Source: Macrotis lagotis
Lineage: Eukaryota > Chordata > Mammalia > Peramelemorphia > Peramelidae
DNA: 64,000 nucleotides
Assembly: GCF_037893015.1 (NCBI RefSeq)
Contig: NC_133658.1
Coordinates: 12,586,304 to 12,650,303 of the forward strand
Reading direction: 5' to 3'
Of this stretch, positions 2,515-43,329 are shown piece by piece; positions within the stretch are counted from its first letter, which is position 1, and the number at the start of each line of letters is the position of its first letter. The notes under the pieces are model-generated. The model did not search any database, was not told the DNA's origin, and worked only from the letters and a program-made list of their open reading frames with translations. The translations under genes were made by a program, and so were the position numbers.

Positions 2515-4445
2515 AATTTGAGGTCCTTGAGAGCAGAGTCAAGATGATGGAATAAAGTCAAGATTCCCTCAAGTTTTCCCCCAAACCTTTGCAAATTCCT
2601 TTTAATAATCATTCTAAAGAGAAGCCAAAAACTTCCTTAAGCTCATCCAGTCTTCCCTAAAACACAGAATTAATCAAACCTCTAAACAGATTCTGGAGTG
2701 ACAGAACTCACAAAAAAAACAAAATAGAGTATTTTCCAGTTATCTGCCATAGGTGAAGGGGAGCATACCTAGGAGAAGGGTAAGTTCAACTACCTTGGGT
2801 AGTGTATGAAGAAGGCAAGGCAGAAGTTTTAGATACAGCTGAGGCCCCTCAGATCCCAATTCAGCAGAACAATGGTGTAGATATCCAGTTAGGAGGGTTT
2901 CAACAAAAGGACACTAGAACCCCTATTCAGCCAGCACATTGGGTTGGATTGCCCAGTAGAATGAGCAAGGCATGGGTGTTCTTATCATAGGCTCCTGCCC
3001 CAAGATGAGATGCTGTGGACAGAGCCCAGGGATAAAATGATTAAGAACAGTCAGAGAAAAGTTGGGACTATAGAAAGTTTCTTTGAAGATAAGGAAAAGC
3101 CCAAGATCATCTTAGAAGATGATAGCAGAAAGAGTAATACATGTGAATCAATGGATGAGAATATGACTTGGTCTCCAGCTACAAAAGACTGCTTGGAAGA
3201 ATGCAAAAGGAATTTTAAAAATCAAACAGAAAAACAGGGAAGCAAATGGAAGAGAAATTCAATATCTTGCAAAAAGATGATCAAAAATTGACTGAAGGGG
3301 TGGCTAGGTGGCTCAGTGGACAGAGCACCGGCCCTGTAGTCAGGAGTACCTGAGTTCAAATCTAGCCTCAGACACATAATAATTACCTAGCTGTGTGGCC
3401 TTGGGAAAGCCACTTAACCCCATTGCCTTGCAAAAACTAAAAAAAAAAGTTGACCAAAAAATAAATCCTTTATAATAAAATTGGATAAATGTGAAAAGAA
3501 AATTATTTTTTAAAATTTAATTGTTTAAATGGAAAAAGATAAGTACATTAAAATAGAATTGACTGATAGAAAATGAAATGAAAAAACGAAATGAATTCCC
3601 TGAAAAATTGTTCTTTGGCAAGAATCAGACGAAATCAAAAATAATCATAAAAAAGGAAAATGTAAACCTCTGGAAAAAAATTTACCTTAAAAATATATCC
3701 AGAAAAGTCATGATCTAAAAAAAAAAAGAGGAAAAGAAAAGAAAAAAAAAGACCCACTCCAACACCTTTCAAGAAATCAAGGGAAACCACCCTGATAAAC
3801 TCAAACCAGAGGGTAAAGTAGTCATTAAAAGAATTCACTATTCACCTACTGAAAGGGATCCCAGAATGAAAACACTAAGCAATATTGTAGCCAAATTCCA
3901 GAACTATCAGATCAAGGAAAAAAATTCTGCAGGTAGCCAGAAAGAAGCAATTGAAAAGGAGTCAAAGTTAAGACAAAACAAGATATGGCACATTCAACAT
4001 TAAAGGATGTAAAGGTCTCGAATATGATATTCTGGAGGACAAAGAAGCTTGAATTATGACCAATAATTAACTAGTCAGAAAAAAATGAGCATAATAGGTC
4101 AGGAGAAAAGATGGATAATTAACAAAATAGAAATCTCAAATTATGCTTGGGTGGGGAGTGAACAGCTGAGCAGCAAACTTGATCTTCAAACTTGAGATTC
4201 TAGACAATAAAAAAAATAAACAGGCCAAATCAAAAGAAAAAAATTAAATTGTTATGTACCTACAGGGGAAGATGATACCCAGAACTCTTTGGAACAGTAT
4301 CTCTATTAGAGGGAGCAAACTCAGAAGTATGGACCTAAATTGATTTTGATAAAATGATGAAAAAATTCTATTAAAAAAGTTACTCTATGGAGATATGAAA
4401 AAGGGAGAGGCAGAATAGAGTAAATTGTATCACACAAAGAGGGGC
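2515..4445 (+). mobile_element. marsupial L1 LINE, 5' portion (5' UTR, ORF1, start of inter-ORF spacer)
   Basis: Seen: it opens with an L1 5' UTR-like start (AGTCAAGATGATGGAATAAAG). A broken ORF1 from about 3010 has an N-terminal coiled-coil-type segment (IESFFEDKEKPKIILEDDS). The ORF1 C-terminal domain appears near 3860-4010 (NIVAKFQNYQIK, then a segment like STLKDVKVSNMIFWR). An A-rich inter-ORF spacer follows. A SINE interrupts it at 3297-3448. Compared with a full L1, ORF2 is absent: at about 4446 the sequence switches to an L1 3' end in the opposite orientation. Several stops and indels make it non-functional. Confidence 0.7.
3297..3448 (+). mobile_element. tRNA-derived marsupial SINE (WSINE1/MAR1-like)
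   Basis: Seen: the A/B-box-type head GTGGCTAGGTGGCTCAGTGG, then GAGTTCAAATCTAGCC, then the tail CACTTAACCCCATTGCCTTG and an A-run. Flanks TTGACTGAA and TTGACCAAA look like a decayed target duplication. It is inserted in L1 ORF1. Confidence 0.85.
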
Positions 4446-8680: not shown

Positions 8681-8860
8681 CAGTGCTATCCAAAATGTGA
8701 CTCATAGACAGCATGCAGCCTGCAGTGTGATTTTATGTAGTCCTCTGTGGATTTAATAAATGAAGCTGAGATACCACAGAGCTCTCACTAAAATGGAAAA
8801 TTAAAATATAATGTATATTGTTTCAAGAAAAACTTTTAGAAGTAAGGTTGAACAGTCCTG
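8681..8860. mobile_element. hAT-type non-autonomous DNA transposon, 180 bp
   Basis: Seen: ends CAGTGCTATCCAA and (reverse complement of the right end) CAGGACTGTTCAA form hAT-like inverted repeats. Flanks CCCTAGAT (left) and CCATAGTT (right) match at 6 of 8 bases, fitting the 8-bp hAT target duplication. The surrounding L1 reads continuously across the site if one flank is removed. Interior GACTCATAGACAGCATGCAGCC resembles the NACCTGCGGCCCGCATGCGG-type interior of mammalian hAT relics. No transposase is encoded. Confidence 0.68.
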
Positions 8861-9344
8861 CCATAGTTCATAGTCAATTTTTGTATAGTTGCCACATACA
8901 ATAGAGAAAAAGGTATCCCTTTCTATCCCCATTCAATTTTTTCCAGAGGTTTATCATGTCTAACTTTTCTAAAATTCTATTTACCTTCTTAACTTCCTCT
9001 TGTTTACTTTTTTGGTTATAGTCATCTAATTCTGAGAAAGGGAGACTGAATTCTCCCAGTATTTTGTTTTGAATGTCTGGGTTTCCCTGTAACTCATTTA
9101 GCTTCTCCTCTAAGAATTTGGATACTATACTTCTTGGTACATGAATTTTTAATAAGGATATTAGTCCATTTCCTATGATATCTTTTAAGAAGATAGAATT
9201 TTCTTTCTTATCTCTTGCAATGAGATATGCTTTAGTTTTTGCTTTGTCTGAGATCAACATATCTATCCTTGCTTTTTATTTTTTATTAATTTTTGCATCA
9301 GTGAAAGTATATTATGTTCTGCTCCAGTCTTTTACCATTACCCA

Positions 9345-9812
9345 GATAGGTGGTACAGTGGAAAGAAGACTGACTTTGGCGTCAGGAAAAACAGTTTCAC
9401 ACCAACCTCAGAAACTTGTCATTTACTAGTGGTGTGATCTTGAGCAAGTCATTTAACCCTGATTGCTTTGCATCTAAGGCCATCTTTTCCTAATTCATAT
9501 AAGATCACTGAACCCAGTGGATTAAAATGTGAAGCTGGTGACTTAACATAATAACACCTTATTCAAGTCCAATTTATGCCTTGTCATGTTATCACCTCCC
9601 TGATATCATAGCCTTCTTCAAGAATGAAGGACAATGGGCTGCTAAGTGGCACATTGGATAGAACACCAGCCCTGGAGTCAGGAAGACCTGAGTTCAAATA
9701 TGGCCTCAGACACTTAATAATTACCTAGCTGTGTGGCCTTGGGGTAGTCACTTAACCCCATTGCCTTGCAAAAAAAATTTAAAAAAAACTGAAGGACAAA
9801 CATCATTATCAC
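9345..9812 (+). mobile_element. SINE with RTE-like 3' tail (WALLSI-like), split by a second SINE
   Basis: Seen: a tRNA-like head CCAGATAGGTGGTACAGTGG, then a CORE-like GTGATCTTGAGCAAGTCATT, then a 3' tail TGATATCATAGCC then TTCTTCAAGAATGAAGGACAA. That tail nearly equals the end of the RTE-like LINE in this window. The younger SINE at 9635-9789 splits it just at the tail. It sits inside an antisense L1 ORF2. Confidence 0.65.
9635..9789 (+). mobile_element. tRNA-derived marsupial SINE (WSINE1/MAR1-like)
   Basis: Seen: the full head-to-tail SINE with an A-rich end. A direct repeat TGAAGGACAA occurs at 9625-9634 and 9790-9799, a 10-bp target duplication. Confidence 0.88.
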
Positions 9813-14986: not shown

Positions 14987-15086
14987 NNNNNNNNNNNNNN
15001 NNNNNNNNNNNNNNNNNNNNNNNNNNNNNNNNNNNNNNNNNNNNNNNNNNNNNNNNNNNNNNNNNNNNNNNNNNNNNNNNNNNNNN
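14987..15086. other. assembly gap (100 N)
   Basis: Seen: exactly 100 N, the usual placeholder for a gap of unknown size. Left flank is a CR1/L3 relic and right flank is L1 ORF2, so the gap probably hides an L1 5' segment. Confidence 0.98.
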
Positions 15087-39603: not shown

Positions 39604-40506
39604 CATTTTGATCTAATAATTAACACCAAGAAAACCCAGGTGCTCCATCAGCCAGCACCACACTATCTATAGGTGGAACCATCGATTACAGCAAACGGAG
39701 AAGTTTTGAGTAGTGTGGACAAGTTCACTTACCCTGGCAGTGTCCTTTCCAAGGAGGTTCACATTGACAATGAGGTTGACAATCACATTGCCAGAGCTAG
39801 CTCAGTATTTGGAAGGCTCCAAAAGAAAGTATGGGAAAGAAGAGGTATCAGATTGACTACCAGACTGAAAGTTTACAGAGTCATTGTGCTGACTTCATTG
39901 CTATATGGCTATGAAACCTGGGCTGTCTACCTGAACCATGTCAGGAAACTGAGTTGCTTCCATTTCAATTGTCTTAGGAAGATTCTGAAGATCCCTTGGT
40001 AGAAGAGACCAGACACTCAGGTCCTTTCTCCACCTAAACTGCGCAGCATGCCAACATTACTACACAGAGGGCAACTATGATGGACTTGACATTATTAGAA
40101 TGTCACATGTGTGCTTACCAAAAAGACAATTCTATGGAGCACTCACACAGGGCAAGTGCTCACAAGAGGTCAGAAAGAGTGATACTTAGACACCCTGAAG
40201 GTCTCTCTCTTAAGAACTTTGGAACACTGGCACAGGATTGCCCAGCATGGCCTGCTCTCATCAATGAGGGGGCTGCGCTCTATGAAGAAGGCAGAATGGA
40301 AGCAGATCAAAGAAAACATGACATTCATAAATTTTAGAGTACCCACCCCATGTGTTCACATGAATTATTTGTGCCCACCACTGTGGAAGAGCATTCTGAG
40401 CTCTTATTGGTCTGATCAGCCAAAGTCGGACACACAGTTAATTTGTCTCAAACATAGTGATGTCATTTTGGTCTTCTTTGATAATGAAGGACAAGAACCA
40501 ACCAAC
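39604..40506 (+). mobile_element. RTE-like LINE, 3' ~0.9 kb with C2H2 zinc finger remnant
   Basis: Seen: it begins TTTTGATCTAATAATTAACACC (an FGLTINTKK-like motif). The frame at 39673-40002 reads PSITANGEVLSSVDKFTYPG, VLSKEVHIDNEVD, RASSVFGRLQKKVWERRGIR, LTTRLKVYRVIVLTSLLYG, FNCLRKILKIPW. Downstream frames give the ARRAY around TAQD, ALINEGAALYEEGR and, at about 40360-40430, a C2H2 finger remnant (C..CGRAF..LIGLIS.SRTH). Tail TGATGTCATTTTGGTCTTC..GATAATGAAGGACAAGAACCAACC. This is the best preserved copy in the window, still broken by stops and small indels. Confidence 0.82.
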
Positions 40507-41344: not shown

Positions 41345-41926
41345 GAAACAAATTTTCAACTATAAAGCTCATGAAAGGTCTTCAGTGAAGGTCTATCTCA
41401 GCGGAAGATTGCTAGTCACACTATAGTCAAGGTCTTGGCAGTCAGAGAGCAGGCAAGCAGGGAAGGTTCCATTCCCAGGAAAAGTTTGAATCTTGGGAAC
41501 ACTGGAACAGATAGGACTAGGTTGGGAACAAACATATTGGCTGAGCCTGGACATAGAGAAGAAACAAACCTCTGTTAGGCAATGCCTGGGCTGGAAAGGC
41601 AACATCTTGGCAAGCCATGAGGAAGGGATCAGCACTGAGCCCCAGCCCCAAAAGCTTAGGACTACACTTTCTAAACCCCAGGAACAGAGCTCAACAATCA
41701 AAATGAGCAAAAAAAAAAAAAAAGAGCATTAACCAAAGAAAACTACAATTCAGATAGAGATGATAAAAATGCCATCTCAGAAGAAGAAACCAGTGACATG
41801 TTACCTATTTGAGAAGTCTCGAAAGAGTTTATGAATTGGGCACAAATCCAAAATCTCAAAGAAGAGCTTGAAAAAAAGATTTTAAAAACCAAAAAAAGAG
41901 AGAACGAAGAAAAAAGGAAAAACATT

Positions 41927-41942
41927 AAAAATTGACCAAAGA
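41927..41942 (+). repeat. left target site duplication of the RNASEH1 retrocopy
   Basis: Seen: AAAAATTGACCAAAGA, preceded by TT, so the insertion point reads TT/AAAAA. This is the L1 endonuclease nick preference. The identical 16-mer recurs at 42884-42899. Confidence 0.95.
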
Positions 41943-42883
41943 CGTGTCCTGGGCTACCCGGGCCCGCCGGCCGCGGGCCTCCTCCCGGTGCCTACTATGC
42001 CCCGGAGCGGGCCATGCAGAGGCTCTGGGCACGCTCCCCAGAGTCGCCACGGGTGTCCTCAGCTGTGGCGGTGCCCGCCGCCTGAGGGGTGGCAAGACCA
42101 GCGTGTTCCCCACCTGGAGTGAATGCCAAGCACAAGTGAACCGATTTCCTGCTGCTCGGTTCAAGAAATTTGCTACTGAGGATGAGGCTTGGGCCTTTGT
42201 CCGAAATACTTCAAGCCCTGAACGTACAACAGAGCAGACAAAGAAATGCAACACAGAGGACCCCAGAGTGAAACCAAACAAGAGACCCTGTGAATCATCG
42301 GATGAAGACGAGCCTTGCAAAAAAAAATTGCAAAACAAGATTCTGAACCTTTACTTAGCAAAGATAAATTTTCTTATATGGGAGATGCAACCGTGGTTTA
42401 CGCAGATGGCTGCTGCTCCAGTAATGGGAAGAGGAAAGCCAGAGCGGGCACTGGTGCTTATTGAGGACCAGGCCATCCCTTAAATGTAGGTGAAAGACTT
42501 CCTGGGAGACAGACAAATCAAAGAGCAGAAATACATGCTGCCTGCAAAGCAACTGAACAAGACAAGAATCAAAACATCGGTAAGCTGGTTCTTTACACAG
42601 ATAGTATGTTTACTATAAATGGTATAACAAATTGGGTTAAAGACTGGAAGAAAAATGGCTGGAAAACAAACACAGGAAAAGATGTGATTAACAAAGAAGA
42701 CTTCATTAAGCTTGATAAACTTATTCAAGGCATAGACATTGAATGGATGCACGTTCCCGGTCATTCAGGGTTTCCAGGCAATGAAGAAGCTGATAGATTA
42801 GCAAGAGAAGGAGCTAAAAAATTTCAAGATTCAACTTAGTATAATTTTTAAAATCTAATTAAAGAGCAAACCAAGAAAAAACG
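41943..42883 (+). pseudogene. RNASEH1: RNASEH1 processed pseudogene (ribonuclease H1 retrocopy)
   Basis: RNase H1 cuts the RNA strand of RNA-DNA hybrids in nucleus and mitochondria. Seen: intronless and colinear with mammalian RNASEH1. It starts at GTGTCCTGGGCT (V-S-W, where the parent has M-S-W), so the first ATG is lost or truncated. The hybrid-binding domain follows ([20 protein letters not shown], then [14 protein letters not shown]), then a linker, then the RNase H domain. All four catalytic positions are kept: [27 protein letters not shown]. It ends normally at TAG 42837-42839. Damage: a one-base shift in the A9 run 42319-42327, and TGA at 42462-42464 where the family has Trp (Y-W-GPGHPLN). 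ATTAAA at 42858-42863 and an A-rich tail complete the retrocopy. The HBD and C-terminus identify it as cellular, not retroviral. No start codon or promoter is evident, so it is probably inactive. Confidence 0.95.
42858..42863 (+). promoter_or_regulatory. ATTAAA polyadenylation signal of the RNASEH1 retrocopy
   Basis: Seen: ATTAAA 19 bases after the stop codon, about 15-20 bases before the A-rich tail (42868-42888). This implies an mRNA with a very short 3' UTR. Confidence 0.75.
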
Positions 42884-42899
42884 AAAAATTGACCAAAGA
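42884..42899 (+). repeat. right target site duplication of the RNASEH1 retrocopy
   Basis: Seen: AAAAATTGACCAAAGA, identical to 41927-41942, immediately after the A-rich tail. Confidence 0.95.
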
Positions 42900-43329
42900 A
42901 ATAAGTTTTTTTAAAAGTAAAAATAACAGTGGAAAAAAAATGAAACTCATCTAAAAGTCAAACTGACTCACTGGAAAAGGAATACAATTCATCAAAGTCA
43001 AATTAATCAAATGGAAAGGAAACAACTCACTGTAGAGTAAAAGTGGAGAAGGAAACACAAAAGCCAACTAAGGATAATAAAATCTTAAAAATTAGAATTG
43101 GACAAATAGCAATTAATGAATCCAAGAGACACCAAGATTCCATCACACAAAATCAAAAGACTGAAAACAATTGAAGAAAATGTAAAGTACCTTTTATGAA
43201 AAAAAACATGAACTGGAAAATAGATCTAGACAGTACTAATTTTCAATCTACCAGAAAGCCTAGATTTAAAAAAAAGAGCCTGGAAAATGTTTTTCAGGAA
43301 ATTGTCATGTAGATCTTAATAAAATACAC

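Follow-up and report, generated by a model that had tools for sequence, protein, structure and literature searches.

A processed RNASEH1 retrocopy inserted into an older repeat, one member of a large retrocopy family

The RNASEH1 copy and its surroundings

An RNASEH1-derived sequence lies at positions 41943-42883 (+) of the window, by which we mean the whole 64-kb stretch of DNA analysed, located at C1:12586304-12650303 by a search of the 3.66-Gb genome. It is a processed, retroposed copy, hereafter called the window copy (Table 1). Pfam profile searches recovered a hybrid-binding domain (PF01693, E 1.2e-13) and, in the piece 3′ of a premature stop, an RNase H domain (PF00075, E 4.2e-34). Human RNase H1 was the top PDB match (E 5.6e-68), and frameshift-aware alignment to the human protein placed identical residues at 182 of 262 aligned positions. 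The catalytic codons for D (42405), E (42528), D (42600) and D (42792) are all kept, as is that for the catalytic histidine (42762). Together with borders that fit an insertion to the base, these matches agree with the original prediction of an RNASEH1 copy containing both domains and, at the level of codons, all four catalytic acidic positions.

Table 1. Features of the RNASEH1 retrocopy and its host repeat (window positions)
Feature	Positions	Strand	Remarks
Older host repeat, LINE-like, split by the insert	41640..43011	+	Joined flanks match 37531-37125 (-) across the junction
Left target-site duplication AAAAATTGACCAAAGA	41927..41942	+	16/16 against 42884-42899; preceded by TT
5′ UTR of RNASEH1 mRNA, 71 nt	41943..42013	+	Aligns with parent exon 1 5′ of ATG; includes GTG 41944
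Degenerate RNASEH1 coding region	42014..42839	+	ATG 42014-42016 to TAG 42837-42839
Exon junctions	after 42116, 42232, 42381, 42481, 42536, 42621, 42746	+	
1-nt deletion point, mRNA 90, frameshift	42031..42032	+	Common only to L026 among 18 other aligned long copies
In-frame 27-nt deletion point, mRNA 143-169	42083..42084	+	Second start Met of parent (codon 28) lost; common only to L026
Hybrid-binding domain remnant (PF01693)	42094..42207	+	32/38 residues as in human
A9 run (parent A7), 2-nt insertion, frameshift	42319..42327	+	mRNA 404
RNase H domain remnant (PF00075)	42369..42836	+	D-E-D-D and catalytic His codons
Premature stop, TGG>TGA	42462..42464	+	Parent codon 159
3′ UTR, 36 nt, ATTAAA 42858-42863	42840..42875	+	Same as parent genomic sequence up to ...CCAAG
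Short decayed A-tail AAAAAACG	42876..42883	+	Runs into right duplication
Right target-site duplication	42884..42899	+	16/16 against left

The parent gene was found on the same contig as an intact eight-exon RNASEH1 locus encoding 283 aa (G000:C1:207883272-207908202, minus strand), its exons accounting for nine of the 41 genome matches to the insert. All seven introns carry a GT donor and an AG acceptor, the borders having been placed by us to fit both the copy and the GT-AG rule. Joining the exons yields an mRNA of 959 nt, both ends of which are defined by the extent of the match to the window copy. Each of the seven exon junctions is contiguous in the window copy, as expected of a spliced-mRNA origin, and 899 of 931 aligned sites are identical. 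A separate, intron-containing gene elsewhere on the contig thus confirms that the locus in the window is a retrocopy, as predicted, rather than the parent.

The ends of the insert recur in other copies of the gene. Its 5′ end falls within a few nucleotides of the ends of several of them (mRNA 1-6); L026, L037 and L039 are among the copies extending ~39 nt further 5′. The 3′ end lies 12 nt past ATTAAA, at most ~5 nt from where the A-tails of L029, L032, L034, L035, L039, L040 and L041 start, and other copies extend to distal 3′ ends. ATTAAA is followed by the short, decayed tail and then by the A5 of the duplication.

The target-site duplication is identical at 16 of 16 positions, adjoins both insert borders and has TT before its left copy. 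As 23 of 2000 simulated 60-nt flank pairs shared a stretch of at least 16 nt anywhere, its length alone would be a ~1% event in A-rich DNA, and exact abutment on both sides renders chance even less likely. The TT/AAAA context is presumably of the L1-endonuclease type. A longer duplication (42846-42888 vs. 41880-41922, 81% similar) was considered and rejected, because the parent genomic sequence itself carries 42840-42875. The likeness, which was reached by 1/1000 and 0/1000 shuffles and by one of ~242 other window segments, is for the same reason taken as an A-rich coincidence.

The interrupted host repeat, which we take to be ORF1-like, has an unoccupied relative within the window: its joined flanks are 63.6% identical to 37531-37125 (-), with gaps near the insertion site. 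To the right of the host repeat, 43482-43710 matches 3843-4067. Elsewhere in the window, a tRNA-derived SINE core, presumably of marsupial type, was matched 13 times between 3336 and 59183 with at most three mismatches (0.00 expected); the core had no exact match in the viral collection, and its letters were not found in the text of the literature searched. The open stretches at 39673-40002 (+) and 8874-9260 (-) appear to resemble RTE-like and L1 ORF2 protein fragments. Positions 14987-15086 are an assembly gap of exactly 100 N, and no RNA families or tRNAs were found in the 64-kb window. In the viral collection, 14 loci encode RNase H relatives, with 49% identity for the first listed and 34-55% over the list.

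Lesions, divergence and age of the window copy

Alignment to the parent revealed four lesions: a 1-nt deletion (mRNA 90), a 27-nt deletion (143-169), a 2-nt insertion (404) and a TGG>TGA change at codon 159. The original prediction had named two clear lesions, the frame change in the A9 run and the in-frame TGA; both are real, and the 1-nt and 27-nt deletions come on top of them. With two of the four lesions shifting the frame, its description of the copy as nearly intact does not hold. The GTG proposed as initiator (41944) corresponds to a GCG in the parent 5′ UTR, 70 nt 5′ of the parent ATG, which is itself intact in the window copy at 42014. In an alignment to human RNase H1, a start at this GTG scored 8 as opposed to 14 for ATG 42014, the parent alignment having been decisive. 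A score of 14 was matched or beaten by 15 of 5000 simulated sequences, and the best-scoring start was position 42013, which misses the ATG by one base and is no ATG itself.

With its frame shifted twice and cut by a stop, the window copy has no ATG-started ORF longer than 77 aa. A 183-codon open stretch holds the hybrid-binding part; it begins in the flank, with a TTG, and passes through the 5′ UTR, into which the frame seems to continue owing to the 1-nt deletion. The window copy also differs at 10 of 114 sites that are alike in three other RNase H1s, mouse and chicken among them, a yardstick since replaced by the parent. Its codon changes, 14 nonsynonymous (N) and 9 synonymous (S) where neutrality predicts 72% N (test for constraint, p 0.18, with little power), appear to fit neutral decay. 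Pooling 17 copies gave 321:146 (p 0.09), the N fraction (0.687) being slightly lower than the neutral one (0.716), and L035 taken alone gave 8:9 (nominal p 0.03, uncorrected).

The window copy carries 32 substitutions over 931 sites relative to the present parent mRNA and 28/931 relative to the consensus of copies, the latter comprising 19/867 non-CpG and 9/64 CpG-type changes. At six of the 32 (mRNA 52, 89, 105, 115, 350, 365), the window copy agrees with 13-17 of the 18 other long copies, and it is the present parent that stands apart. An estimate of divergence from lesion counts, made without the parent, was 1.2-3.6% with outer limits of 0.4-10.5%. Along the insert, the CpG observed/expected ratio runs 0.68/0.52/0.31 compared to 0.10 for the window, an excess partly owed to the CpG-rich source exon. 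A slower rate of 0.0022, which we assume and apply to non-CpG sites of the window copy, gives an age of ~10 Myr. At the substitution rate of 0.0045 per Myr that the available text of PMC3403934 gives for WSINE1, the age would be ~6.7 Myr. We infer that the copy inserted very roughly 6-10 Myr ago, both rates being borrowed from outside this species. The predicted youth of the copy next to its surroundings is upheld by these substitution counts, set against the 63.6% identity of the best second copy of the host repeat in the window, and by the CpG ratios. The idea that the copy stands out is not: in nine of the 18 other long copies in the genome, substitutions relative to the parent make up a smaller fraction of sites.

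A family of RNASEH1 retrocopies

Once the parent exons are set aside, the 41 DNA matches to the insert resolve into 29 places; this count has the window in it and treats each of three pairs of adjacent pieces as one place. Sixteen of the 28 further RNASEH1-like places are independent copies longer than 850 nt, 1.9-9.1% diverged from the parent. Twenty-five of the 28 were retrieved, the remainder being three weak matches of 74-330 nt with 65-78% identity. The alignment comprised the 19 copies longer than 850 nt, the window copy included, and left out the shorter L043, L044 and L046-L050; L045 (24% diverged) was kept outside the tree, and L045 and L032 outside the analysis of homoplasy. L029 and L032, separated by 32 kb, have a common duplication and were therefore counted as one insertion that was later copied as DNA.

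Flanking matches of 11-18 nt occur at all 18 loci examined (the window, L026-L029, L031-L041, L046 and L047, with L030, L042-L045 and L048-L050 outside the set), four of them with one mismatch; some lie up to ~40 nt 5′ of the aligned 5′ end, and they were called without a shuffle control. The tree of copies is ladder-like along the line of the parent, the shape that a single evolving gene copied again and again should give, with mostly weak support. Compared with the parent, none of the 19 aligned copies is free of frameshifts. The window copy is an ordinary pseudogene in a prolific RNASEH1 family.

For comparison, two control genes were searched in the same genome. RNASEH2A (PF01351 model) gave at least one exon-sized match and no detected retrocopy. 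Thymidylate synthase (PF00303 model) gave at least 13 matches, which we grouped into one spaced-exon locus and about five retrocopy-like places (G000 C4:263535224, C1:320726058, C5:239533400, C9:291639991 and C5:30109603). This comparison of copy number, resting on two control genes, is rough, as the controls were searched by protein model and RNASEH1 by DNA, and the counts are lower bounds. According to the available text of PMC13251070, parental genes in most mammals usually have one retrocopy each, and a minority have many. No title on marsupial RNASEH1 retrocopies was found among the literature matches listed. This raises the question of why RNASEH1 has so many copies here, given that none was detected for one control family and about five for the other.

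The copies may also bear on the start codons of the parent. Codon 28 of the parent is another in-frame Met, within an MFYAV motif whose human RNase H1 equivalent begins with Met27, which we take to be the start of the nuclear isoform. In humans and mice, one gene encodes both nuclear and mitochondrial RNase H1, as stated in the available text of PMC9181182. Among the long copies, the codon-28 start (mRNA 154) reads ACG and not ATG in seven of 15 informative ones, with L029/L032 counted once and with the window copy and L026 lacking the site. Five codons further 3′, an AAG>ATG change (mRNA 169) is present in L030, L033, L034 and L037, and in three of these (L030, L034 and L037) this new ATG is joined to ACG at codon 28. 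As an alternative to polymorphism, part of the split could be due to CpG decay of an ancestral ACG.

Origin of the window copy and comparison with known retrocopies

With its spliced structure, parent gene, target-site duplication, tail, lesions and divergence in evidence, the window copy is almost certainly a spliced, polyadenylated RNASEH1 transcript that LINE-1 inserted into an older repeat and that then decayed, one of many such copies. A fully spliced, polyadenylated transcript would have been copied into DNA and integrated at a TT/AAAA site of the LINE-like repeat through LINE-1 target-primed reverse transcription; the hallmarks of the insertion point to L1 machinery. Decay would have followed with no constraint detectable, and the copy is predicted, judging from its sequence, to give no RNase H1 product. 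Many RNASEH1 retrocopies, this one among them, would have been generated over a long period in this lineage. The immediate template may already have had the 1-nt and 27-nt deletions, since L026 on contig C7 shares both.

Two readings of the locus itself compete with retroposition followed by decay. A functional retrogene, encoding a working or truncated RNase H1-like protein, would account for the retention of every catalytic codon and for a hybrid-binding part that sits within a long open stretch, but the two frameshifts, the stop and an ATG-started frame of only 77 aa speak against it, the 183-codon stretch opens at a TTG outside the insert and crosses the 5′ UTR, and the codon changes are compatible with neutrality; we consider this highly improbable. 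A reading of the window copy as the parental locus, or as a duplicate made from that locus at the DNA level, draws on sequence identity and nothing more. It is refuted by the lack of introns, the A-tail, a duplication of its own and the separate intact eight-exon locus, and deserves practically no weight.

What the template was is a finer matter, on which L026 (C7:11198611-11199540 and beyond) bears most directly. L026 and the window copy share both deletions (1 nt and 27 nt) as well as 177C>G, none of which occurs in other aligned long copies, and a genome-wide search for the 27-nt deletion junction (at most two mismatches) found these two places only. L026 starts ~39 nt further 5′, uses a distal poly(A) site and has a duplication of its own (GAAAACTACATTTGC, as opposed to AAAAATTGACCAAAGA); with different duplications and 3′ ends, neither can have arisen from the other by duplication at the DNA level. 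Further 3′ of L026, the piece L052 (C7:11194000-11203500, 8768-9501) contains RNASEH1 3′ UTR sequence whose identity is 98.4% with L026 and 95.6% with the parent; part of L026 has probably been duplicated locally to give it.

These shared deletions suggest a refinement of the retroposition reading to which we give an even chance, namely that both copies stem from the same transcribed retrocopy, perhaps L026 itself, which was retroposed again. L026 keeps a 279-aa open frame from an ATG in the 5′ UTR despite its frameshift relative to the parent, although its codon changes (N:S 10:8, p 0.11) indicate no significant constraint. In the substitution-only tree the window copy groups with L029/L032 (46% support) and not with L026; a tree forced to pair it with L026 was not rejected (delta lnL 0.38, AU p 0.435), and substitutions thus neither back nor reject the pairing. 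Against a common source, the two copies have two derived non-CpG substitutions in common, no more than the window copy has with L031 or with L039 (two each), and at two sites, mRNA 47 (CpG) and 254, L026 departs from the present parent while the window copy matches it. Another possible, if doubtful, explanation is that the deletions are recurrent reverse-transcriptase errors, made independently at structured, GC-rich exon-1 RNA. An identical 4-nt deletion (174-177) scattered over the tree in L029/L032, L031 and L038 favours such recurrence, as do its location in the 5′ arm of a GGUC-GCAA-GACC hairpin predicted in four of four folds, a 3-nt GAG match at the ends of the 27-nt deletion, and a higher non-CpG homoplasy in exon 1 (15/64 steps) than in exons 2-8 (21/223; tree from exons 2-8 only). 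However, three identical separate changes (90, 143-169 and 177) would be needed twice, and the predicted folds do not juxtapose 142 and 170. The probability left after these two explanations falls to a parental variant or gene conversion behind the sharing.

On the tree of all exons, non-CpG homoplasy was 10/59 in exon 1 and 23/225 in exons 2-8. Exon-1 changes are shared reticulately among copies, so the simple scheme of one parent mRNA followed by decay fails for some sites. At the predicted hairpin arm, the 174-177 deletion (L029, L031, L032, L038) may mark a hot spot of reverse-transcription error. A broader reading with multiple source RNAs, in which a transcribed retrocopy or variant allele gave rise to the window copy and L026 and other sources reflect a long-lived polymorphism of the codon-28 start, strikes us as unlikely; if true, RNASEH1 retrocopies would be a fossil record of shifting mitochondrial and nuclear start use.

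On its own, the window copy matters little, being a textbook processed pseudogene, and the family is the more useful object: across ~2-9% divergence, the RNASEH1 copies record the parent mRNA over time, with its start sites, two or more poly(A) sites and allelic states. The few human RNASEH1 pseudogenes (RNASEH1P1 and others) are presumably the same kind of copy of the same parent gene, in a different species and from different insertion events. Relative to the RNASEH1 gene, the window copy is mRNA-derived but has no introns, bears four lesions and has lost the second start. It resembles the processed pseudogenes and L1-mediated mRNA retrocopies of mammals, by the hallmarks set out in the available text of PMC7692494, in being intron-less, with an A-tail, duplications, a dead frame and an unlinked site. 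The window copy itself is no different from the typical mammalian processed pseudogenes described there; what sets this case apart is a parent gene that has been copied many times in one genome.
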